Source of the DNA: Alphaproteobacteria bacterium
GTDB taxonomy: Bacteria > Pseudomonadota > Alphaproteobacteria > Rhodospirillales > Rhodospirillaceae
Length of the DNA stretch: 64,000 nucleotides
NCBI GenBank assembly: GCA_030835385.1
Contig: JAURPI010000022.1
Span: 124,001-188,000 of the forward strand
Reading direction: 5' to 3'
Positions 2,697 to 29,164 of the stretch are shown piece by piece; position 1 is the first letter of the stretch; each line of letters begins with the position of its first letter. The position numbers and the translations under genes were made by a program. The notes below the pieces were generated by a model. That model was not told the DNA's origin and did not search any database. It saw only the letters and a list, made by a program, of their open reading frames with translations.

Positions 2697-2748
2697 TTGC
2701 ATCGATAATAATATCTGCCGTTGGATTCGAAGTAGAAAGGTTGGTCGA

Positions 2749-3915
2749 ATGACGTTTCACGCGTGGCTATGCGCTCTGGTGGTTAGGGCTGCTGCGCCGA
2801 TCTTCTTGTTGTCACTTACGTCGGCTGTTAGCCATGCTGAAGTCCGAACTCCCGACGCGCCATCAGCTTTTGTTCTTGTCGAAAAAGGTCACGGATGGGA
2901 TGTCACAGATAATGAGCAGATGGCTCTCTATACGTCGAAACGTGACATTGAGCCGGGCACGTCAAGTTGTGTCGAAGACTGCGCAGTGAGCTGGCCGCCG
3001 TATTTAGCTCCGGAAGGAGCGGAAGGTAACGGTGATTGGTCGATCATTACGCGGGATGATGGGGGCCGACAGTGGGCGTACGATGACAAACCATTATACC
3101 GGTACAGCGTCGATCAGGGGCCAGGTGATACCTACGGTGAAGGCATAGGCTTACTTTGGGATATTGCTTTCATAAATGCTCCAACACCGCCCGGCGTTCT
3201 TATCAACAAGACATTGATGGGGTATGTCGCCGCTGACCACCATAAAATGACTTTGTATGCGCCAGCGGCAGAAGTAGAGGTCGCGTCTTTATGCGTCGAA
3301 AAGCCTTGCTTGGCAGAGTGGAGTCCGGTGATTGCGCCACGCATCGCCCGATCCATTGGTGATTGGAATGTGATCTCCCGTGAAGATGGTTTGAACCAAT
3401 GGGTGTATCAGGGCCGTCCTTTGTTCCGGTTTTCTGGCGACGTTTTAACAGGAGAATTATCGGGGCACGGTGCACCTCTTGATTCTGATGGAAAATCAAT
3501 GGAAGCCATGGTGCTTGAACCGCGCCCTCCATATCCTGATTGGGTGCGAGTGCAGGATACCGATGCCGGGGAAATGCTCGCCGATCCTAATTACAAGACG
3601 ATCTATACCTGGGATCCCAGCAAATTGTTTTCCCGGCTAGCCGCACCAGCAAAGGCGTGCGGAGCGGAATGTCTCGACGAAGAGTGGGTTCCTAAATACG
3701 CCGGTGAAGATGAAGTTGCTCCTGGTGGCAATTGGGCAATACTACCATTGTCTGATGGTCGTAGGCAGTGGGCCTACAAAGGACGTCACCTTTTCACCAA
3801 CACGCGTGATGTTACTCAGGGGTCCTTCTTAGGGTATCGCCACGGCGGTAATCGGGCGTTCAATGTGGTGATGCACTCGGGTGATGCGTTGCAAGGTACA
3901 CTTAGACGGCCCTAG
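2749..3915 (+). CDS. Secreted Lipoprotein_15 (PF03640-like) triple-repeat protein
   Basis: A 388-residue exported protein with a cleavable signal (hydrophobic core about residues 8-28, ending SHAE). Three repeats of roughly 100 residues follow. Each has an LYT-like strand, a Cys pair (CVEDC, CVEKPC, CGAEC), a WPP or WSP motif, a GDW or GNW turn, a DG-x(2)-QW segment and a PL[YF]R-like strand. This is the secreted-repeat / Lipoprotein_15 pattern, of unknown function. The paired cysteines suggest disulfides in the periplasm. It follows the DUF1552 gene by 52 bases with an AAAGG-type ribosome site and has a paralogue in the second module at 12084-13223. Function is not known; a role together with the DUF1592/DUF1552 pair is inferred from the repeated gene order. 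Confidence 0.8.
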   Translation: MTFHAWLCALVVRAAAPIFLLSLTSAVSHAEVRTPDAPSAFVLVEKGHGWDVTDNEQMALYTSKRDIEPGTSSCVEDCAVSWPPYLAPEGAEGNGDWSIITRDDGGRQWAYDDKPLYRYSVDQGPGDTYGEGIGLLWDIAFINAPTPPGVLINKTLMGYVAADHHKMTLYAPAAEVEVASLCVEKPCLAEWSPVIAPRIARSIGDWNVISREDGLNQWVYQGRPLFRFSGDVLTGELSGHGAPLDSDGKSMEAMVLEPRPPYPDWVRVQDTDAGEMLADPNYKTIYTWDPSKLFSRLAAPAKACGAECLDEEWVPKYAGEDEVAPGGNWAILPLSDGRRQWAYKGRHLFTNTRDVTQGSFLGYRHGGNRAFNVVMHSGDALQGTLRRP

Positions 3916-4027
3916 ACGCTTGTGATCCTGACCGTCTGGTGCCTTTGAATATAAATTCCTATTCCCGGATTGTCTTCGACATGCGACAAAAGAGGGCAAT
4001 GCGACGAGTACTGTACTGAGGTTTAAC

Positions 4028-4384
4028 ATGAGCAAGAACACGACATTCAATCGACGTTCAGTCGTTAAGATGGGGCTTCAAGTGCCTTTGGTTTCTGCCG
4101 CTGCAGGGGTGTTGGTCGCGTGCGGTGATGGGGAAGAAATTGCGTTGTGCGCCGACCCCAATATGTTGAGCTTTGGTGAAAACAGTATTCGCCAAGCCAA
4201 CAAATACATTGAGGTATCAGAAGAGGCCGATAAGAATTGTCTCAACTGTGCATTTTTTACGCCTGAACCGGCGGGACCTGACGGCGTGGTGCCCAACTGC
4301 GGCGATTGCAGCATATTTGAAGGCCTTGCGAGCAAGAACGGTTATTGCGATTCTTGGAGCACCAAAGACACAGGCCAGGGATAA
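4028..4384 (+). CDS. High-potential iron-sulfur protein (HiPIP), Tat/lipoprotein type
   Basis: A 118-residue protein. Residues 71-118 carry the HiPIP signature: C71-x2-C74 with aromatic residues after it (AFF), C94-SIFEG, and GYC107DSW. These four cysteines should hold one [4Fe-4S](3+/2+) cluster that works at high potential in the periplasm. The N-terminus has a twin-arginine motif (NRRSVVKMG) and a lipobox-like LVAC with C32, so the mature protein may be lipid-anchored. Cys91 lies three residues before the likely ligand Cys94 and is an extra cysteine. The ribosome site GAGG is 7 bases before ATG. HiPIPs carry electrons between cytochrome complexes and terminal acceptors. The convergent tri-haem cytochrome c gene is a plausible partner, but that link is inference. 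Confidence 0.88.
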   Translation: MSKNTTFNRRSVVKMGLQVPLVSAAAGVLVACGDGEEIALCADPNMLSFGENSIRQANKYIEVSEEADKNCLNCAFFTPEPAGPDGVVPNCGDCSIFEGLASKNGYCDSWSTKDTGQG

Positions 4385-4391
4385 GTCAGCG

Positions 4392-5663
4392 TCAGCGCTG
4401 CTTGCCGACATCTGCTTCCGTTACTGCTCCACCGCGATTGCCCCAGTTGGACCTAAGGTAAGTGCTCAGTAGAGCAATTTCGTCGTCATCTAACTTGTCG
4501 CCAAATGCTTCCATGGTTTTCCATGCACCCGGCGGCGAAGGTGCGGGCACTTCGGCTCCATAAATAATAACGTTTATCAGTGATGCTGGGTCTTCAGCCT
4601 GCACAACGCTGCTGCCCGCAACCGCTGGGCCGATGCTTGGATCGCCAAGGCCTGTTGGCAAGTGACAGGTGCCGCAATGGATGGTGTACAGCAATTCACC
4701 AGCCCTGAAATCAGCATCGCTCATTTTGTGTTGTGGTGCGCGTTCTATGGGCGGCAGGCTTTTAAGGTAAACAGCCATCGCGCGGACGTCGCTTTCACTG
4801 AGTTGCGAAGTGCTCATGGTGATAACTTCATTCATGGGACCGAATGTTCCTCCCATGCCGCCGTGACCTGTTTTTAGGTATGAGGTGAGGTCATCTTCAG
4901 ACCAAGCTGCTAAGCCGTCTGATGCAGATGTTAGGTTCACGGCTGACCAGGGGCGAATCTTATCTTCGTCTACTTTGTCGTTGTATGTGCCGCCGCTGAG
5001 AGCTTGTTCAGATTGTAGGCCGCCTAACGCGTTCCGAGGTGTGTGGCAGGTTCCGCAATGGCCGAGACCTTGGACAAGATAAGCCCCTCGATTCCACTGC
5101 TCCGTCTGCGACTCATCAAGTTCAAAGCGTTCGTTTTCCAAATATAAAGCGTTCCAAACGCCCATTAGGCCACGCTGATTGAACGGGAACCCCATTTCGT
5201 TTTCAGGTGGAGAATAGGTCGACGGGGCTACGGATTCCAGAAACGCAAAGAGGTCTTTGAGATCTTGTTCTGAAACTTTTGTGAATGATGGGTAGGGGAA
5301 CGCTGGGTATAGGTTTGAACCATCAGCTGCCTTGCCTTCATGCATAGCGCGGATGAATTGATCTTCCGTCCAACCGCCAATGCCAGCTGTGTCATCTGAT
5401 GTGATGTTGGTCGAGTAAATAATCCCAAAGTCGGTGTGAAAGGCGATGCCCCCCGCGAATGGCTCTCCGCCTTCCTTGGTGTGGCAGGCCATGCAGTTTC
5501 CGGCAGTCGCGAGATACAAACCTCGCTGCACGGGATTGTCGCTGTCGGCCATAGGGACGGAAGAAGAAGGCTCTTGGGCGGGTGCGTTTGTGGCGAAAGC
5601 GATCGCAACGACCGTCACAACGCACGAAATCGAACGGGAGAAAGATAGCATAGCTTTAGTCAC
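4392..5663 (-). CDS. Tri-haem cytochrome c (AdhB/gluconate dehydrogenase cytochrome-subunit type)
   Basis: About 423 residues with three CxxCH haem motifs (GNCMACHT, GHCGTCHT, IHCGTCHL), one in each of three cytochrome c domains, as in the cytochrome subunits of membrane alcohol, gluconate or sorbitol dehydrogenases. I chose the GTG at 5663 because AAGGA lies 7 bases upstream and the product starts MTKAMLSF, giving a signal peptide that ends near NAPAQ. The family passes electrons from a periplasmic dehydrogenase to ubiquinone or an oxidase. No catalytic dehydrogenase subunit of the GMC or PQQ type is adjacent, so the electron donor is unknown; DUF1592-type proteins or the HiPIP are candidates by position. 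It converges with the HiPIP gene, 7 bases apart. Confidence 0.88.
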   Translation of the reverse strand: MTKAMLSFSRSISCVVTVVAIAFATNAPAQEPSSSVPMADSDNPVQRGLYLATAGNCMACHTKEGGEPFAGGIAFHTDFGIIYSTNITSDDTAGIGGWTEDQFIRAMHEGKAADGSNLYPAFPYPSFTKVSEQDLKDLFAFLESVAPSTYSPPENEMGFPFNQRGLMGVWNALYLENERFELDESQTEQWNRGAYLVQGLGHCGTCHTPRNALGGLQSEQALSGGTYNDKVDEDKIRPWSAVNLTSASDGLAAWSEDDLTSYLKTGHGGMGGTFGPMNEVITMSTSQLSESDVRAMAVYLKSLPPIERAPQHKMSDADFRAGELLYTIHCGTCHLPTGLGDPSIGPAVAGSSVVQAEDPASLINVIIYGAEVPAPSPPGAWKTMEAFGDKLDDDEIALLSTYLRSNWGNRGGAVTEADVGKQR

Positions 5664-20359: not shown

Positions 20360-20597
20360 GACTAATCTTGCGGCCTGGCGAGGTAGTTCGGTGTGGTGCG
20401 CCCGCCCACACTATCAGGTTGGTTAAGATTGGGTCGGAATTGAAGGCTCGTATATAGAAGAAAATTCTCTTTTCAGATTTCAGACAAGGATAAGTACCCA
20501 AATATTGGCTACATAATACTGATTGGGAGAATTTATATCCTTTTTCAGGGGCCGGCCCCTTAAGCCACGCGCAACGAATCAATTACGGGTGCGCGCC
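20360..20597 (+). promoter_or_regulatory. Upstream region of the sirohaem/sulfate operon
   Basis: A GC-rich hairpin (GTGTGG 20391-20396 with CCACAC 20406-20411) follows the solute-binding gene and may end its transcript. Further on, AAATTCTC (20462-20469) and GAGAATTT (20527-20534) form an 8-base inverted repeat about 57 bases apart that could be an operator pair. No riboswitch that I recognise is present. The promoter of the ten-gene operon should lie here. Confidence 0.35.
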
Positions 20598-21497
20598 ATG
20601 AATGCCATACGGCAGGCTACAGCTGATCATTCCACCGCAAGCAGTACTGCGGGTTCTGTGACCCTCGTCGGAGCCGGTCCTGGCGCAGTTGACCTTCTCA
20701 CCGTCCGGGCCGTGCGCACATTGGAAAACGCAGATGTGGTTTATTACGACAGCCTTGTCGATGAAGCAGTGTTGTCTCTGATTCCCAAGTCAACCAAGCG
20801 GGTTCATGTGGGTAAGCGTAAGGGCTCTCGAGTCATGTCGCAGCAATCCATACAAGACGGTATGCGCGATGAGGCCTTCGCGGGAAACCATGTTGTGCGT
20901 TTGAAAGGCGGTGATCCGTTTGTTTTCGGACGAGGCGGCGAAGAACTCTTGGATCTGCGGGCTCAAGGCCTCGACGTTACGGTTGTGCCTGGCGTCACCG
21001 CCGCCATCGGCGCGGCGGCTGAGCACGGCATTCCGCTTACTCACCGCAATGTGTCCACGTCAGTAACGTTTGTCACCGGCCATACTCTCGACGAGTCAGT
21101 GCCTGATCTTGAAGGCTTAGTATCATCAAAACGTACGCTGGTTGTGTACATGGGCGTGTCCAACGCCGATAAAATCGCAAGGCGGATTATCGAAAGCGGT
21201 CTGCCTTCCACCACAGCTGTAGCCGTATTGGAGCGCGCAACCCTCCCGGACCAGCGCGTCATTTGCACCACTCTCGAGGCGTTAGCCCAATGTAAAACGC
21301 TGGAGGAGATTAAAACCCCAGCTCTGTTGGTGATCGGTGATGTAGCGGCATTCGCTCAATCGGACGCAGACACGGAATCTGATGATATCGCAGACGAACC
21401 AGCGCCCTCTATTCCGGTTCGACCGACACCTGTGACTCAACCTGCCCCAACGCCGAACCAAGAGCCCTTTGAATGGGTTCATCATCCTCTGGGATAA
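20598..21497 (+). CDS. cobA: Uroporphyrinogen-III C-methyltransferase (SUMT)
   Basis: 300 residues. It shows VGAGPGAVDLLTVRAVRTLENADVV (SAM-binding, residues about 17-41), the RLKGGDPFVFGRGGEE motif near residue 105, and PGVTAAIGAAAEHGIPLTHR, all diagnostic for SUMT. The enzyme methylates uroporphyrinogen III twice to precorrin-2, the branch point to sirohaem. An acidic, proline-rich tail (about residues 258-300) is an addition. It heads the operon; the DUF2849 gene starts 4 bases after its stop. The ATG at 20598 has only a weak ribosome site, and no good alternative is visible. Sirohaem supply for the sulfite reductase two genes downstream is the obvious purpose. Confidence 0.93.
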   Translation: MNAIRQATADHSTASSTAGSVTLVGAGPGAVDLLTVRAVRTLENADVVYYDSLVDEAVLSLIPKSTKRVHVGKRKGSRVMSQQSIQDGMRDEAFAGNHVVRLKGGDPFVFGRGGEELLDLRAQGLDVTVVPGVTAAIGAAAEHGIPLTHRNVSTSVTFVTGHTLDESVPDLEGLVSSKRTLVVYMGVSNADKIARRIIESGLPSTTAVAVLERATLPDQRVICTTLEALAQCKTLEEIKTPALLVIGDVAAFAQSDADTESDDIADEPAPSIPVRPTPVTQPAPTPNQEPFEWVHHPLG

Positions 21498-21501
21498 AGT
21501 T

Positions 21502-21825
21502 ATGCCATTTATTCTCTCTGCAAACCGGCTGCGTGACGGAGCCGTTGTCTATTTTGCGCAAGACAATTCTTGGTCAGAGCGTATTGAAGACGCGGCTGCC
21601 GTGCCCGAAGACCGGGTTGGCAAACTGGAAGAAGCAGGTTTGGATGCTGAGGCGCGTAACCATGTTGTCGGCAGCTATGCGATAGAGGTTGCGGCGTCCT
21701 GTCCTCCTTACTCCACGCGCTTGCGCGAACGTATTCGCAGTCACGGCCCCACCGTAGGTGACCGGCAGACGCGTACCGCTGTTGAAGACCACCAATCACG
21801 TCCTATGGGCGGTCCTGAGGGTTAA
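21502..21825 (+). CDS. DUF2849 protein
   Basis: 107 residues beginning MPFILSANRLRDGAVVYF, the DUF2849 pattern: a small cytoplasmic alphaproteobacterial protein nearly always encoded between SUMT and sulfite reductase. It is rich in charged residues and has no catalytic motif. Its gene is 4 bases after SUMT and 3 bases before the reductase, so it is an integral part of the operon. A role in sulfite reductase maturation or regulation is inferred from this fixed position only. Confidence 0.85.
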   Translation: MPFILSANRLRDGAVVYFAQDNSWSERIEDAAAVPEDRVGKLEEAGLDAEARNHVVGSYAIEVAASCPPYSTRLRERIRSHGPTVGDRQTRTAVEDHQSRPMGGPEG

Positions 21826-21828
21826 GTT

Positions 21829-23484
21829 ATGTATGTTTATGATTCCCTAGACAAAACGCTGCTCAATCAACGGGTCGCAGAGTTTCGCGATCAGGTTCAG
21901 CGACGTCTCGACGGCGATTTGACCGAAGATCAGTTCAAGCCGCTAAGGCTGATGAACGGTTTGTATTTGCAGTTGCACGCCTACATGCTGCGTGTAGCGA
22001 TACCCTACGGCACGTTGTCGTCTGACCAGATGCGCAAACTTGCTTATGTTGCCAAAACCTATGACCGTGGTTATGGCCATTTCACAACCCGCCAAAATAT
22101 CCAATTCAATTGGATTGAACTGAGCACAGCACCTGACCTCCTGTATGATCTGTCCGAGGTCGATTTGCACGCGATTCAAACCAGTGGCAATTGCATTCGC
22201 AACGTCACGGCGGATCCATATGCTGGAGCGGCCGCTGATGAGCTAGACGACCCTCGCATCTGGTCGGAAGTCATCCGCCAGTGGTCGACGCTGCACCCCG
22301 AGTTCTCGTTCTTGCCGCGTAAATTCAAAATCGCCGTCACCGGGTCCGAGGCGGACCGGGCTGCAATTAAATTTCATGACATCGGATTAAAAATTGTCCG
22401 TAACAACGAAGGCGTTCTCGGCTTTGCCGTTTATGTCGGTGGCGGGCAGGGTCGTACGCCGATTGTGGCGCCTCTCATTAAAGCGTTTCTGCCAGCCCCG
22501 GATCTACTGCGATACCTAGATGCGGTCTTGCGCGTGTATAACCGGCACGGCCGTCGCGACAATATTTACAAAGCGCGTATCAAAATCCTGGTCGATAGCA
22601 TGGGGGCTGACTCTTTTGCTGCTGAGGTCGCGTCCGAATTCAATCGCCTCGACCCTAAGCTCCTGAGTGTGCGGGACGACGACGTTAGCCGTCTGCGCGA
22701 CATGTTCGCTCAGCCTTATTTGCGCCCCGATCCAGATTCCTCATCTAGCTTTGAGGACCTTGTGAAAAAATCGCCTCGCCTTGGTCCGTGGTTCAAATCT
22801 AATGCCCATCCGCATAAAACACCTGGTTATTCGATTGTTACCATTTCACTTAAACCAATCGGCGGTATTCCTGGTGACGCCACGGCAGAGCAAATGTTCG
22901 GCATCGCTGATTTGGCCGACCGCTTTAGTCTCGGTGAAATTAGGGTCACCTATACCCAAAATCTGATTTTGCCCCATGTGCGTCAGGCTGATTTGTTTGT
23001 GCTATGGCAAGAATTGGAACGCCTCAACCTGGCTACGCCGAATGTGGGATTGGCGAGCGACATCATAGCTTGTCCAGGGCTGGACTACTGCTCTCTCGCC
23101 AACGCGCGTTCGATCCCTATTTCTCAGCGCATTAGCGAGCGCTTCGCGAATCTGAACGCGCAACATGACGTCGGTCCACTGGATATCCGCATTTCTGGAT
23201 GCATCAACGCCTGTGGTCATCATCACGCGGGCCATATAGGCATTCTCGGCGTCGATAAGAAAGGCGAAGAGCGATATCAGTTGACGCTTGGTGGTCAGGG
23301 CAACGGCGAGTCTGCAGTCGGCAAGATCGTCGGTCCCGGCTTTGATGAAGACGGCATCGTTGATGCCGTCGAGACTGTTGTCTCTACCTACTTAAGCTTG
23401 CGCACTGAAGGAGAAGTGTTTTCCCAGACCCTGGCCCGCACCGGACAAGACCCTTTTAAGGAGCGTCTTTATGACAATCGTTAA
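21829..23484 (+). CDS. cysI: Assimilatory sulfite (nitrite-type) reductase haemoprotein
   Basis: 551 residues. The cluster motif C415-x5-C421 (CPGLDYC) with C458-x3-C462 (CINAC) ligates the sirohaem-coupled [4Fe-4S] cluster. Two ferredoxin-like half domains are visible (GLYLQLHAYMLRVAIPYG and KTPGYSIVTISLKPIGG). It reduces sulfite to sulfide with six electrons. With cysH, DUF934 and DUF2849 around it, sulfite rather than nitrite is the likely substrate. No flavoprotein subunit (CysJ) is adjacent, so the electron donor, ferredoxin or a flavoprotein, is encoded elsewhere. Its 3' end overlaps the DUF934 gene by 14 bases. Confidence 0.93.
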   Translation: MYVYDSLDKTLLNQRVAEFRDQVQRRLDGDLTEDQFKPLRLMNGLYLQLHAYMLRVAIPYGTLSSDQMRKLAYVAKTYDRGYGHFTTRQNIQFNWIELSTAPDLLYDLSEVDLHAIQTSGNCIRNVTADPYAGAAADELDDPRIWSEVIRQWSTLHPEFSFLPRKFKIAVTGSEADRAAIKFHDIGLKIVRNNEGVLGFAVYVGGGQGRTPIVAPLIKAFLPAPDLLRYLDAVLRVYNRHGRRDNIYKARIKILVDSMGADSFAAEVASEFNRLDPKLLSVRDDDVSRLRDMFAQPYLRPDPDSSSSFEDLVKKSPRLGPWFKSNAHPHKTPGYSIVTISLKPIGGIPGDATAEQMFGIADLADRFSLGEIRVTYTQNLILPHVRQADLFVLWQELERLNLATPNVGLASDIIACPGLDYCSLANARSIPISQRISERFANLNAQHDVGPLDIRISGCINACGHHHAGHIGILGVDKKGEERYQLTLGGQGNGESAVGKIVGPGFDEDGIVDAVETVVSTYLSLRTEGEVFSQTLARTGQDPFKERLYDNR

Positions 23485-23989
23485 TGCCTCGGGCGATGTG
23501 GTCGAACAGGGTTGGACCACTGTTGAAAGTCTCGAGGGCTACGGCCCGCATCACGGCATAATCGTATCGCCTGCCGTACTATTAGACAGTTTCGATGAAG
23601 CTGATCACGTGTCTTTGTCTCACACAGGGGTGCGCCTGTCTGTCGAAGACGATGTGAGTGAGATTGCTGCTTATGTCCCGCACCTTGGTCTCATCGAGTT
23701 AGTTTTCGCCCAATTTAAGGATGGCCGACCATATTCTACGGCGCTGACATTACGGCGAGACTACAAATTCACGCACGAGCTACGGGCCTCTGGTGACGTG
23801 CTTCCAGATCAAGCGATTTTTCTAATCCGCAGCGGTTTTAGTTCTGTCGATGTCCCTGATCAGTTTACGGCACAAGAATTCAAGAAGTCCCTTATGGCCT
23901 ATTCCGTTGCCTATCAATCGGCGCATGACAGCCATGTGTCTTTGATCGACGACCTACGACGGTCTACGCCCGACGTGGCCGCAGAATGA
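23471..23989 (+). CDS. DUF934 protein
   Basis: 172 residues with the DUF934 core: LSHTGVRLSVEDDVSEIAAYVPHLGLIELVFAQFKDGRPYSTALTLRRDYKFTHELRASGDVLPDQAIFLIRSGF, of which FKDGRPYS and LRASGDVLPDQ are the most diagnostic. DUF934 proteins are encoded in sulfate-assimilation operons between CysI and CysH and have no assigned activity. Overlaps on both sides (14 bases with cysI, 4 with cysH) show tight coupling. An accessory role in sulfite reduction is inferred from context. Confidence 0.88.
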   Translation: MTIVNASGDVVEQGWTTVESLEGYGPHHGIIVSPAVLLDSFDEADHVSLSHTGVRLSVEDDVSEIAAYVPHLGLIELVFAQFKDGRPYSTALTLRRDYKFTHELRASGDVLPDQAIFLIRSGFSSVDVPDQFTAQEFKKSLMAYSVAYQSAHDSHVSLIDDLRRSTPDVAAE

Positions 23990-24694: not shown

Positions 24695-25990
24695 ATGACC
24701 AGTCAGTTCTCAAGCAATCCGCCATCTTATCTAGAGACGTCTTCTTTGCAGACGGATGGTGTCTTTAATTATGACGCCGCTTTTGATTCTGGCCTCAACG
24801 ATCTTAAAGCTGCGGGTTTTTATCGTTCATTTGCTCGTCTCGAGCGGTTGCCGGGTGCTTTTCCAAAAGCGTTGCTCCACGAGCACGGCGAAACGCGTCC
24901 TGTCACGGTTTGGTGTTCCAATGACTATCTCGGCATGGGGCAGCACCCTGTTGTTGAGGCAGCGCTGCATGATGCAGCGACACGCTTTGGCGCTGGTGCT
25001 GGCGGTACTCGCAATATTGCCGGAACCCATAACGTTCACGCCTTGTTAGAAGAGGAAATCGCATCTTTGCATGGCAAAGAAGCGGCGCTGCTATTCACCT
25101 CCGGCTATGTCGCCAATGAAGCGGCGCTCAGCACCTTGGCCGCACGTCTTCCCAATGCGGTGTTGTTATCCGATGAAATGAACCACGCCTCGATGATAGC
25201 GGGTATCCGGCATAGCAAGGCTGAAAAACATATTTTCCGTCACAACGACCCAGATCACCTAGAAGCGATTCTCAAGTCACTGGATCGTACGCGCCCTAAA
25301 ATCATCGCGTGCGAATCCGTCTATTCTATGGACGGCACAATTGCACCGCTCGTAGAGATCGCTGCTACTGCGCAACGTTACAAGGCACTAACTTATGTAG
25401 ACGAAGTCCATGCCGTTGGGCTTTACGGGACAGAAGGCGCGGGAATTGCAGCAGAGCAAGGCGTAGCTCAGCATATAGACTTTATTCAAGCCACGCTGGC
25501 CAAGGGCTTTGGTGTCATGGGTGGGTATGTCGCTGGGTCACGCCGGTCGATTGACTATATTCGCAGTTTTGCACCTGGATTTATTTTCACCACTTCGTTG
25601 TCGCCTGTGTTGGTAACCGCCGCGCTGGAGTCTATCCGGCACGTCCGAAAAACGGTCGAGCTACGGGTCAAACATAAGCAACAAGTTCTGAGCCTGAAAA
25701 GAGCTCTACGCGTGCGCGGTATTTCTTTCCGAGATGAGTCATCGCACTTCATACCCCTCATTATTGGGGACCCATTTGTGACTCGAGAAGCGGCACGGCT
25801 GTTGCTTGATCACCATGGTCTCTACGTACAGCCAATTTTTGCGCCAACCGTTGCGCCAGGCACAGAACGCCTGCGACTTACGCCCACGCCTCATCATACG
25901 GACGTCATGATCGATAATTTGGCTGATGCGCTATCCGAAGTATTAAGCCGAGCATGGCAGATAAAAGAGGTCAATCATGGCATGGCCTAA
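24695..25990 (+). CDS. hemA: 5-aminolevulinate synthase
   Basis: 431 residues from ATG 24695 (GAGG 8 bases upstream). This is the PLP-dependent alpha-oxoamine synthase that condenses glycine and succinyl-CoA to ALA. Visible motifs are CSNDYLGMGQHP, GAGGTRNIAGTH, the DEVHAVGLYG turn and the PLP lysine K270 in TLAKGFGVMGGY. The C-terminal RLRLTPTPHHTD fits ALAS rather than KBL or BioF. Its presence inside a sulfate-assimilation operon is unusual, because hemA is normally elsewhere in alphaproteobacterial genomes. A second, housekeeping hemA may exist outside the window. Confidence 0.92.
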   Translation: MTSQFSSNPPSYLETSSLQTDGVFNYDAAFDSGLNDLKAAGFYRSFARLERLPGAFPKALLHEHGETRPVTVWCSNDYLGMGQHPVVEAALHDAATRFGAGAGGTRNIAGTHNVHALLEEEIASLHGKEAALLFTSGYVANEAALSTLAARLPNAVLLSDEMNHASMIAGIRHSKAEKHIFRHNDPDHLEAILKSLDRTRPKIIACESVYSMDGTIAPLVEIAATAQRYKALTYVDEVHAVGLYGTEGAGIAAEQGVAQHIDFIQATLAKGFGVMGGYVAGSRRSIDYIRSFAPGFIFTTSLSPVLVTAALESIRHVRKTVELRVKHKQQVLSLKRALRVRGISFRDESSHFIPLIIGDPFVTREAARLLLDHHGLYVQPIFAPTVAPGTERLRLTPTPHHTDVMIDNLADALSEVLSRAWQIKEVNHGMA

Positions 25991-26897
25991 GTTGCGTATC
26001 GGTACACGACCGAGCCGTCTTGCCCGTATTCAAGTTGAACTGGTGCGCAAGGTGTTGTGCCGCCAAGTTCCCGATCTTCAAGACAATATTGAAGTGGTGG
26101 TTTACGACACACCTGGTGACCGAGACCGAACAGCTCATTTAGAAGACCTTGGAGGGCGTGGTGTTTTTACCGACGACCTTGACGCCCGCGTGGCTGCCGG
26201 TGAAATTGATTGTGTTGTTCACGCCATGAAGGACATGGCTCCTGATTTACCGACTAATCTCGTTATCGGGGCTACGCTCGAACGAGAAGATCCGCGCGAG
26301 GTATTGGTCGCACCGCGCTACACAAATTTAGAGGCGATGCCTCAGGGCGCCGTGTTTGGGTCATCATCTATTCGCCGTCGCGCTTTGCTCAGACGTCTAA
26401 GGCCTGACCTTCGGTTCACTCTCTTGCGCGGCAACGTGGAGGACCGTATTGCCCAGGTGGAGACGGGGTCATGCGATGGCACTATCCTGGCTTATGCCGG
26501 TTTAGCACGTCTCAAATTGTTATCTCATGCCCGACAGACTTTTGCTTTGAACGTGCTGCCGCCAGATCCCGCGCAAGGGGCCATAGGCATAGTCAGCCAT
26601 AAAGACAACTTCCTGGTCCGCCGAATGCTGCAAATGATCAATCACGCACCCACTTATGCAGAAGTCTCGGCCGAGCGAGCCTTGTTGCGAGCATTGCCGC
26701 AGCCAGATGCTATAGCTATTGGTGCTGTTGCCCGTGCAAGCGGCTCGCACCTATGTTTTTCCGCGGTGTTGGTGTCTGAGGACGGCACACAAGAATGGGC
26801 AGAACATATCGAAGGCGACGTTGAAGATTCTACTACTCTTGGTCACCGGCTCGGCATGACGTTGCAGGAGCCAGCGCAGCGCTTGTTATCCGCATGA
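25977..26897 (+). CDS. hemC: Hydroxymethylbilane synthase homologue lacking the cofactor cysteine
   Basis: 306 residues, a convincing HemC. Catalytic positions align with a constant +2 offset to E. coli: K85, D86, R133, R134, R151, R157 and R178. The normal enzyme holds its dipyrromethane primer on Cys242 in GGC-x2-P. Here the same block, aligned without gaps, reads ERALLRALPQPDAIAIG, with D244 in that place. P replaces the usual glycine before it, and the GQG of another motif is AQG. Either the protein uses a non-covalent or differently attached cofactor, or it has another role. The gene overlaps hemA by 14 bases, with AGAGG 6 bases before the start. Confidence 0.9.
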   Translation: MAWPKLRIGTRPSRLARIQVELVRKVLCRQVPDLQDNIEVVVYDTPGDRDRTAHLEDLGGRGVFTDDLDARVAAGEIDCVVHAMKDMAPDLPTNLVIGATLEREDPREVLVAPRYTNLEAMPQGAVFGSSSIRRRALLRRLRPDLRFTLLRGNVEDRIAQVETGSCDGTILAYAGLARLKLLSHARQTFALNVLPPDPAQGAIGIVSHKDNFLVRRMLQMINHAPTYAEVSAERALLRALPQPDAIAIGAVARASGSHLCFSAVLVSEDGTQEWAEHIEGDVEDSTTLGHRLGMTLQEPAQRLLSA

Positions 26898-27577
26898 TTA
26901 TCAACACCCGACCGTTGCTTTTTGAGGCAGCCATGCGACGTAAATTATCTGGACGTGACGTCGCGACAACCCCAATGCTGACCCCGCGTCTGGTGCCCTG
27001 GCCTGTGTCGGCACTTGATGACGTCGATGCACTCGTCGTAACCAGTCAAGTCGCCGTTAAATTTCTCGAGCAATTTCCCGTGTCGCGTGACCTCCCCGTT
27101 TTTGCTGTTGGTCCTGCTACCGCTGATGCGGCACGAGAATCCGGATTTAGAGAGGTGACACATGGCGGCGGCACGGCCGAAAAACTACTGCATGCGATTG
27201 ACGCGGCTTCTTTCAAGGGAGGGCTTTACCTTTCCGCACGCCAGGTCTCTCGCGATCTTTCCCTTGACCGACCATCCCGTATCAAGCGGCAGATCACTTA
27301 TGAGATGACGCCAGCTAAATCCTTGCCGGATCTTGTCATAAACATGATCAAATCGGGTCAACGATTTGTGGTGCCGTTCTATTCGCCGCGTGCGTTTCAG
27401 GTGTTCGAATCTTTGACTATGCATTACGGCCTCGAGGCACATATTTCGCGTGCTGTGGCAATCGCCATGCATCAAAGGGTATTTGAAGCGCAGACGTTGC
27501 CATGGGGGCAGACTCGGATTGCTGTCGCGCCAGACGGTGAGGGCATGATTGAAGCCCTCAAGACGGCGGCATATTAA
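26894..27577 (+). CDS. hemD: Uroporphyrinogen-III synthase
   Basis: 227 residues beginning IINTRPLLFEAAMRRKLSGRDV, the typical HemD start (TRP). LVVTSQVAVKFL and FAVGPATADAARESGFREV in the first half and VPFYSPRAFQVFESL in the second fit the two-domain cyclase. HemD is poorly conserved, but the position between hemC and hemB makes the assignment safe. It converts hydroxymethylbilane to uroporphyrinogen III by inverting ring D. The ATGA overlap with hemC and the 1-base gap before hemB show coupling. Confidence 0.87.
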   Translation: MIINTRPLLFEAAMRRKLSGRDVATTPMLTPRLVPWPVSALDDVDALVVTSQVAVKFLEQFPVSRDLPVFAVGPATADAARESGFREVTHGGGTAEKLLHAIDAASFKGGLYLSARQVSRDLSLDRPSRIKRQITYEMTPAKSLPDLVINMIKSGQRFVVPFYSPRAFQVFESLTMHYGLEAHISRAVAIAMHQRVFEAQTLPWGQTRIAVAPDGEGMIEALKTAAY

Positions 27578-27578
27578 T

Positions 27579-28595
27579 ATGTCGCGTTCTAGTGAGTCTC
27601 CCGCAGCTTATCCCGCGACACGCCTCCGCCGGACGCGCCAGGCACCGTGGATTAGACGTCTCGTCCGCGAAACAACTCTCCAGCCGTCAGACCTGGTGTT
27701 GCCGCTATTTCTTGTCGAAGGGGATTCGCTTCGTGAACCGGTGGGTACCCTGCCTCGCGTTGATCGACTAAGCATCGACCTCGCGGTTGAAACTGCTGCT
27801 CAAGCCGCCAACTTAGGTATTCCGGCAATCGCACTTTTTCCGGCTGTCGAGTCCGCATTGAAGACTGAAGATGGTGCCGAGGCGTGGAATCCTGACTCCT
27901 TGGTTTGTCGTGCGGTCCGTGCCATCAAAGCAGCGGTTCCTGATATTGGTGTCATTTGTGACGTTGCGCTCGATCCGTATACGAGTCATGGCCATGATGG
28001 CCTGTTGCGTGGGGGTAAAGTGCTCAATGATGAAACAGTCGAGGTGCTGGTCAAACAGGCTCTGACGTTAGCGACGGCGGGCTGCGATATTGTTGCCCCC
28101 TCTGACATGATGGACGGGCGCGTTGGTGTGATCCGCGCGGCGCTAGAACCGCGGGGTTTTGCCGACACCTTGATCCTGTCTTACGCAGCAAAATATGCCT
28201 CGTGCTTTTACGGACCGTTTCGGGATGCCGTTGGATCAAGTCGTGCGCTCGGCGGGGCGGACAAATCCACCTATCAGATGGACCCTGCCAACGCAGCCGA
28301 AGCGCTGCGCGAAGTTGAGCTCGACATCGTCGAAGGGGCTGACATGGTTATGGTTAAGCCAGGTATGCCGTATTTGGACGTAATTCACTATCTGTCGCAT
28401 TCCTATGATGTGCCGGTCTTCGCCTATCAGGTCAGCGGTGAGTACGCCATGCTGAGTCTCGGTGCTGACAACGGGCTATTCGATAGAACAGCAGCATTTA
28501 TGGAATCCTTGCTTGCGTTCAAACGGGCGGGTGCACGCGGCATATTCACCTATGCGGCCATTGATGTCGCCACTGCACTTACAGAGCCGTCGTAA
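27579..28595 (+). CDS. hemB: Porphobilinogen synthase (ALA dehydratase)
   Basis: 338 residues. The Schiff-base lysines are K205 (SYAAKYAS) and K260 (VMVKPGMPYLD). The metal-site segment reads DVALDPYTSHGHDGL, with no zinc cysteine triad; this is the Mg/K-dependent kind found in alphaproteobacteria. The C-terminal GIFTYAAIDVA is also typical. It joins two ALA to porphobilinogen. The order here is hemA-hemC-hemD-hemB, so hemB follows the enzymes it feeds. ATG 27579 is one base after the hemD stop; an upstream ATG lies inside hemD. Confidence 0.93.
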   Translation: MSRSSESPAAYPATRLRRTRQAPWIRRLVRETTLQPSDLVLPLFLVEGDSLREPVGTLPRVDRLSIDLAVETAAQAANLGIPAIALFPAVESALKTEDGAEAWNPDSLVCRAVRAIKAAVPDIGVICDVALDPYTSHGHDGLLRGGKVLNDETVEVLVKQALTLATAGCDIVAPSDMMDGRVGVIRAALEPRGFADTLILSYAAKYASCFYGPFRDAVGSSRALGGADKSTYQMDPANAAEALREVELDIVEGADMVMVKPGMPYLDVIHYLSHSYDVPVFAYQVSGEYAMLSLGADNGLFDRTAAFMESLLAFKRAGARGIFTYAAIDVATALTEPS

Positions 28596-29164
28596 TGCTA
28601 CCGCTTATGCTAGATGTCACGCAGACGCCCATTGCAGTGATCGGGAACGGGTTTGCCGCAAGCCAGCGGCTAAACACTTTACGTTCGAGTGGAGCGCAGA
28701 ACGTCACCACGTTTGCAACCGAACCGGAACCTCGCGTGTCAGAACTTGCTGGCGCCCAAGTATACAATCGCCTGCCTAAGCAAAAAGAGTTTGAGGCTGC
28801 GCTTTTTCGTATTGTCTATGTCTGTGAAATTGAAGAAGAAGCAACGCAGAAAATTGTTATGTGGGCCCACGAGATTGGTGCCTTCGTCAATGTGCATGAC
28901 CGCCAAGACCTGTGTGACTTTCACATGCCAGCTATCCTTCGTCGTGGTCATCTGCAAGTGACAGTGTCTACGGATGGAAAGGTGGCTGGGTTGTCCCGCA
29001 TTCTCCGTGATTTTCTGGGAGAAAAGATATTTGGTCCGAAATGGGCAGAACGGGTCGATGACTTGGGAGCACGTCGCGCGGACTGGGTTGCGCAAAAACT
29101 ACCCTTCGAAGATCTTAAATCCCGAGTCGAAAACTATGTGGATGACAAGGGTTGGTTAAAGTAA
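28595..29164 (+). CDS. Precorrin-2 dehydrogenase / sirohydrochlorin ferrochelatase (CysG N-terminal type)
   Basis: About 189 residues. The Rossmann start is PIAVIGNGFAASQRLNTL. The conserved catalytic block VNVHDRQDLCDFHMPAILRRGHL keeps the expected aspartates, followed by VTVSTDGKVAGLSRILRDFL. It is NAD-dependent and oxidises precorrin-2 to sirohydrochlorin; in the Met8/CysG family the same site also inserts iron. It completes a full ALA-to-sirohaem set in one operon. The ATG at 28595 overlaps the hemB stop (TAATG); an internal ATG at 28607 is possible. It is the last gene of the operon. Confidence 0.88.
   Translation: MLPLMLDVTQTPIAVIGNGFAASQRLNTLRSSGAQNVTTFATEPEPRVSELAGAQVYNRLPKQKEFEAALFRIVYVCEIEEEATQKIVMWAHEIGAFVNVHDRQDLCDFHMPAILRRGHLQVTVSTDGKVAGLSRILRDFLGEKIFGPKWAERVDDLGARRADWVAQKLPFEDLKSRVENYVDDKGWLK

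Follow-up and report, generated by a model that had tools for sequence, protein, structure and literature searches.

A hydroxymethylbilane synthase (HMBS; hemC) without the cysteine that ordinarily carries the dipyrromethane cofactor is encoded in the window, by which we mean the whole 64,000-nucleotide stretch of alphaproteobacterial DNA analysed here, and it belongs to a clade of such genes. We judge it probable (roughly 0.7) that the protein is a working HMBS that serves sirohaem only, in bacteria without a haem branch, and that it does so without the usual cysteine-thioether hold on the primer. In two earlier papers, the cysteine-tied cofactor, which the enzyme builds from its own substrate, is treated as fixed in tetrapyrrole synthesis (PMC3949521, PMC7242693), and the cysteine is termed invariant (PMC3949521). 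A search of titles and abstract openings, which covered a minority of subscription journals and no bioRxiv preprints, returned no paper on a natural Cys-less HMBS. Judged from its sequence, the protein is the known enzyme HMBS in a new, Cys-less form. The gene, its neighbours and the sites discussed below are as follows.

20595..21497, + strand: uroporphyrinogen-III C-methyltransferase (SUMT, CysG-A); profile matches, start codon assumed
21484..21825, + strand: DUF2849 protein; PF11011, start assumed
21829..23484, + strand: nitrite/sulfite reductase (sirohaem enzyme, CysI-like); PF01077, PF03460
23471..23989, + strand: DUF934 protein; PF06073
23986..24684, + strand: phosphoadenylyl-sulfate reductase (CysH); PF01507, NF002537
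24695..25990, + strand: 5-aminolevulinate synthase (ALAS); TIGR01821 at 565 bits, start assumed, end overlaps the HMBS start
25977..26897, + strand: Cys-less HMBS (hemC), 306 aa; TIGR00212, PF01379, PF03900
26118..26174, + strand: lid (active-site) loop of HMBS, residues 48-66, remodelled (R51, E56, R61, D66)
26232..26234, + strand: HMBS codon 86, catalytic Asp, kept (E. coli D84, human D99)
26565..26567, + strand: HMBS codon 197 (E. coli A195, human A214), GAT; an Asp that is new to the Cys-less clade and invariant in it
26706..26708, + strand: HMBS codon 244, GAT (Asp), cofactor-cysteine site (E. coli C242, human C261)
26894..27577, + strand: uroporphyrinogen-III synthase HemD, divergent; PF02602 at 68.9 bits, NF006621 at 70.6 bits (cut-off 223), start overlaps the HMBS stop
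27579..28595, + strand: porphobilinogen synthase HemB; PF00490, NF006762, start assumed
28595..29164, + strand: precorrin-2 dehydrogenase-type CysG-B; PF13241, TIGR01470

As the original prediction held, residue 244 is an Asp that lies opposite C242 when the protein is aligned by phmmer with E. coli HMBS (1ah5), and catalytic Lys85, Asp86 and Arg133, 134, 151, 157 and 178 are all kept. Arg11 is kept as well. The constant +2 offset to the E. coli protein assumed there was wrong, the offset being 0 at the N-terminus and +2 only past about residue 36, and four other active-site residues differ from E. coli (S81 to A83, T127 to S129, K59 to R61 and A195 to D197). The window protein scored 266.8 bits against the TIGR00212 hemC model (cut-off 164), with six other Cys-less members at 247-271 bits, and 212.4 bits against PF01379 (cut-off 22.1). 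The C-terminal domain model PF03900 (cut-off 26 bits) matched the window protein at 27.7 bits and L039 at 29.6 bits; L040 and L144 fell below the cut-off, and the profile search gave no match in L041, L142 and L143. An AF2 model of the window HMBS (pLDDT 96.6, pTM 0.94) matched 22 HMBS entries of the PDB at Z scores of 33.7-40.9, with the next row at 11.9, which indicates the three-domain HMBS fold, an outcome favoured by an input alignment in which 62 of 68 rows were canonical; the best match was 4htg (Z 40.9), and 1pda followed at Z 39.4 with an rmsd of 1.6. A search for a second, canonical hemC in the window genome (99.58% complete), which had been proposed as a check, found none with either PF01379 or a profile of the clade, each of which returned a single gene.

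We found PF01379 matches in 54 of 61 genomes, the window genome included. Cys-less HMBS accounted for 14 genes in 13 genomes of one alphaproteobacterial family, nine of them with Asp at the site (D-type) and five with a gap of two residues there and no Cys (gap-type). D-type genes, with the motif LPxPDA, occur in seven genomes of the window's genus (eight genes, two of them in G004) and in G009 of a second genus; gap-type genes are the second copy of G029 and those of G030, G063, G064 and G096. The 162 rows inspected at the Cys site (30 Cys-less and 132 with Cys) held many genes more than once, and removal of duplicates left the 14 Cys-less genes to be compared with 125 distinct canonical rows, which were defined by having C and were drawn from relatives and pattern matches, not as a random sample. 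After the trait columns had been masked, a tree of 58 rows placed the Cys-less genes in a single clade (100/100) on a branch of 0.85. Their proteins are 302-322 aa long and align across nearly all of TIGR00212, with identity to the window protein down to 42-49% within the set. Among the listed 80 of 560 relatives, 5 were Cys-less, all within the 13 genomes, and the other 75 had Cys. A class-wide search of 385 evenly drawn genomes at E 1e-82, a search that unrelated Cys losses would escape, returned no member except the window's genome. The single relative from viral contigs (L206, 27% identical) has retained a Cys at the site, as judged by eye. Depositors labelled G005, G006 and G063 as Rhodospirillaceae (G063 from 'Baikal-deep'), G096 as Rhodobacteraceae and G029 as Marinimicrobia. 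The 83% complete genome G004 holds two sirohaem clusters with different Cys-less HMBS genes (L035, L036), and it may be a mixed bin.

The Cys-less HMBS is under purifying selection, with dN/dS of about 0.1. Between the window gene and that of G005, dN was 0.054, dS 0.477 and dN/dS 0.112; dS was finite in 7 of 28 HMBS pairs, with a median ratio of 0.097, and saturated in the others. For the same two genomes, dN/dS was 0.088 for ALAS, 0.095 for HemB and 0.258 for HemD. Sequencing error and decay, which the original prediction named as grounds on which it would fall, were both rejected. Codon 244 is GAT, two base changes away from a Cys codon, which excludes a one-base error from Cys, and nine genes have Asp at the site; the same nine genes and the dN/dS values rule out decay. 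A third such ground, a covalent cofactor carried by another residue, is less likely than not. The window HemD (26894-27577) is very divergent, with a dN/dS above that of its neighbours, and it may have adapted together with the Cys-less HMBS.

The search for homologues with Asp or another change at this site beside sirohaem genes, also proposed earlier, led to the 14 Cys-less genes and to an operon that they share. All ten genes, in the order SUMT, DUF2849, sulfite/nitrite reductase, DUF934, CysH, ALAS, HMBS, HemD, HemB, CysG-B, were present at seven distinct loci (the window, G003, the second copy of G004, G005, G009, G029 and G063). At loci cut by the end of a contig or of the stretch analysed (G001, G002, the first copy of G004, G006, G030, G064 and G096), the visible genes kept the same relative order. 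The Cys-less HMBS would serve sirohaem synthesis for the sulfite reductase of its own operon, and the sirohaem-enzyme profile PF01077 was matched in all 12 genomes whose only HMBS is Cys-less.

HMBS type was also associated with the haem branch. A search for HemE (PF01208), made with one Pfam model in drafts of 57 of the 73 family genomes, found it in 0 of 12 Cys-less-only genomes and in 36 of 37 canonical-only genomes, nine of which were classed by score alone; the exception, G008, is 81% complete. HemE was also present in G029, which has both forms of HMBS, and in one of seven genomes with no HMBS match. Fisher's test of HemE against HMBS type gave p = 1.4e-10, a value that overstates independence because the genomes are related. 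HemF (PF01218) was absent from all nine Cys-less-only genomes searched, which is not decisive, as many canonical genomes lack HemF as well. Four genomes (G011, G062, G028 and G061; 99, 98, 81 and 58% complete) had no HMBS match, HemE or PF01077, and two (G022 and the 80% complete G023) had a PF01077 match with neither HemE nor an HMBS match; the contig of G022 stops inside CysH, just ahead of the expected place of ALAS and HMBS. The near-complete G011 and G062 speak for a tie between HMBS and sirohaem use, and G022 and G023 speak against it.

These 12 Cys-less-only genomes are apparent haem auxotrophs, and haem auxotrophy is known among aquatic and sediment bacteria (PMC11139205). A search for COX1-type oxidases was positive in each of 15 genomes, of which 12 are Cys-less-only. 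A need for haem is therefore probable, and the hosts would presumably import haem or a porphyrin. A sirohaem-to-haem (Ahb) route, by which the enzyme would feed haem synthesis too, was considered and rejected, Ahb-type PF17805 being found in 0 of the same number of genomes (15). The retention of ferrochelatase is hard to square with a lost haem branch: it scored over the cut-off in eight of the nine Cys-less-only genomes searched (G000-G006, seven of seven in the genus, and G030) and only below threshold in G009 and G011. In the window's genus, without detected HemE or HemF, this lone ferrochelatase lies at L162:7902-8945 (G000 contig 5) and in L163 and L164; it may use imported porphyrin or run in reverse.

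A natural swap of the two HMBS forms is seen in three sister genomes (G007, G024 and G077), to which this comparison is confined. Their sirohaem operon is the same as the window's minus ALAS and HMBS, and tblastn with the window proteins found no remnant of either gene in it. Each has instead a separate haem cluster, identified by Pfam in G024 and by phmmer in G007 and G077, with HemH, GtrR, HemL, a two-component pair, canonical HemC, HemE, HemF and HemJ. The G077 operon also lacks HemD, and one HemD lies between hemC and hemE in its haem cluster. The simplest reading of these gene contents is that the Cys-less HMBS can be replaced by a canonical one, in which case the two would make an identical product and pass it to HemD proteins of one kind. 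G029 retains ALAS and the Cys-less HMBS in its operon and has a haem cluster with HemH, a two-component pair, HemC and HemE; the part of it that was covered has neither GtrR nor HemL. Because G029 keeps both forms, its Cys-less HMBS is possibly unnecessary and carried along with ALA synthase. Trees of sulfite reductase and of HemB grouped G029 with G007, G077 and G024 (98/98 and 88/88, respectively), so that the loss of ALAS and HMBS took place either on as many as three occasions or on a single one, with G029 later regaining both. The haem-cluster hemC sequences, with an EGGCQ motif, of L042, L043, L044 and L045 (G029, G013, G007 and G024) stood apart from the family's other canonical sequences (100/99); from these sequences, it looks as though haem synthesis was regained by transfer in three genera.

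Comparison of Cys-less and canonical proteins separated the residues that changed from those that were kept. Position 197 is D in all 14 Cys-less genes and in 0 of 125 canonical rows (A in 122, S in 2 and P in 1), and position 244 is D in 9/9 D-type genes, a gap in 5/5 gap-type genes and C in 125/125 canonical rows. Since the loss of Cys was one event, the association with D197 has a single origin. In the lid loop, R51, R61 and D66 were found in 14/14 Cys-less genes and E56 in 13/14, with Asp in the remaining one. A Cys at aligned position 53 of this loop is common to two gap-type proteins, L143 and L144 (RDC[AS]IE). Catalytic Asp86 is present in all Cys-less genes and all 125 canonical rows, the substrate arginines are kept in 14/14 Cys-less genes, and 12 of 16 elongation-site positions are identical in all 14 (R11, S13, K85, D86, S131, R133, R134, R151, R157, A172, R178 and Q200); of the other four, G201 is kept in 13/14 and positions 83, 129 and 130 vary, position 83 (the counterpart of human S96) being Ala in the nine D-type and Ser in the five gap-type genes. 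Head-site positions 197, 198 and 243-246 differ in make-up from the canonical rows. In human ES2 structures, ring C1 touches P101, T102 and the main chain of V215, whereas C2 touches S262 (PMC7907807, section 11 and Table 2), and V215 sits in a hinge near the active site (PMC3738108). With human numbering transferred by counting from D99 and Q217, the D-type counterparts of P101, T102, V215 and S262 are A/T/E88, P89, P198 and A245. P198 also occurs in 28/125 canonical rows and P88 is kept in the gap-type, so neither P198 nor position 88 is diagnostic by itself. The cleft has thus changed where it receives the cofactor end, and is mostly unaltered around the growing end of the chain.

These patterns suggest that chain-elongation chemistry would be retained through Asp86, Lys85 and the arginine set, and we infer from sequence and genome context that the Cys-less HMBS makes hydroxymethylbilane (HMB). 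The dipyrromethane primer could not be held through the usual cysteine thioether. Human HMBS does not tolerate mutation of the cofactor Cys (PMC10577081), and the growing chain was found bound only to that residue (PMC7907807); a Cys-less enzyme must hold its primer otherwise. In the part of PMC3949521 that deals with apo-enzyme, the cofactor forms faster from the product bilane than from porphobilinogen (PBG). Most likely no cysteine link is involved, and the reading we prefer is that the growing chain is retained at the altered head site by other means, D197 being one of the contacts. The arginines and the remodelled head site, to which Asp197 would add a new contact, might grip a pyrrole head that is not tethered (a dipyrromethane or the first PBG), or a short-lived ester might be formed by an Asp. 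One tentative version of the former, which we would put at the upper end of the unlikely, has no dipyrromethane cofactor at all: the first PBG would act as primer, its ammonium-bearing head seated on Asp197 at the place of canonical ring C1, and the chain would grow to an aminomethylbilane that is deaminated to hydroxymethylbilane at the Asp86 site.

The ester is a special form of the preferred reading, that of a working Cys-less HMBS, and somewhat less probable again: Asp197 in all members, or Asp244 in the D-type, would trap the first azafulvene, and hydrolysis would free HMB and leave no permanent cofactor. Pyrrylmethyl esters are expected to be labile, which counts against this route, as does the absence of D244 from the gap-type. 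In its favour are the invariance of D197 in the clade and its absence from the 125 canonical rows, the nine genes out of 14 in which D244 replaces the Cys, and the position of human V215, which adjoins A214 (the D197 counterpart) and touches ring C1 by its main chain (PMC7907807).

Outside the preferred reading of a working, sirohaem-dedicated enzyme, the alternative that survives best is a slow or damaged HMBS tolerated where sirohaem demand is small. HemE was not found, so demand is probably low, and the three sister genomes dispense with the Cys-less form where a canonical HMBS exists, a loss that would equally follow if the Cys-less protein were merely inferior. We nonetheless regard this alternative as unlikely, given dN/dS near 0.1, the invariant new residues and an elongation site largely kept at 42-49% identity. 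Attachment of the dipyrromethane cofactor to another cysteine is very doubtful: C79 is present in 9/9 D-type genes, but the alignment contains no cysteine common to all 14, the gap-type has none at 79, and the only Cys of L041 falls at aligned position 28 and that of L144 at position 53. A pseudoenzyme, or a protein with some other function, is at least as hard to credit; the residue lost is essential in canonical enzymes, but the gene is the sole HMBS, it is flanked by the genes for ALA synthase and HemD in a sirohaem operon that is complete in other respects, and the catalytic Asp and Arg residues are kept in 14/14. Of the two options offered by the original prediction, a sirohaem-dedicated non-canonical HMBS fits the genome evidence; an altered protein kept by selection survives in its mild form (slow or leaky), whereas a dead protein is improbable because the Cys-less gene is the sole HMBS in 12 of 13 carriers, is under purifying selection and is missing together with ALA synthase from three sister genomes with canonical HMBS. 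That assembly artefacts hid a canonical HMBS is scarcely believable, since, although each of the 13 genomes is a draft in some 20 contigs or more and the five with named records are labelled MAG, there are 12 Cys-less-only genomes, several of them 98-100% complete, and HemE is missing from every one.

The nearest known enzyme is canonical HMBS or porphobilinogen deaminase (EC 2.5.1.61; E. coli HemC, human HMBS), which the Cys-less proteins resemble in fold, catalytic Asp, arginine set and pathway place beside ALAS, HemB and HemD genes. They differ from it in having no cofactor cysteine, a replaced or shortened cofactor-loop sequence, D197, loss of the Ser equivalent to human S96 (D-type) and Arg in place of lid-loop K59. 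The 241-position NCBIfam HMBS model NF002202 (PRK01066), which we take to be a chlamydial HMBS model, appears to end before the cysteine site; P0001 scored 123.9 bits against its cut-off of 251, and the Cys-less proteins, at 302-322 aa, are longer and fall below that cut-off. A natural Cys-less clade with a kept elongation site lends itself to three questions: what the cofactor is for, by what means the chain is counted to four, and how the primer is held. The same clade points to apparent haem auxotrophs that, although equipped with haem-copper oxidases, retain the path from ALA to sirohaem and a specialised enzyme of their own for it.

A sulfite-reductase operon of the form cysG-DUF2849-cysI-DUF934-cysH is common in Alphaproteobacteria, and the first five genes of the window operon are of this type; DUF2849, sulfite reductase, DUF934 and CysH were also seen in G015. 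Unlike that type, the window operon adds ALAS, HMBS, HemD, HemB and CysG-B, which together would provide a route from ALA synthesis through precorrin-2 to sirohaem. In G001 (L032, about 2732-5438), roughly 2.7 kb separate CysH from ALAS, compared with a tight junction in the window. The DUF2849 and DUF934 genes (window 21484-21825 and 23471-23989) are kept at all seven complete operon loci.
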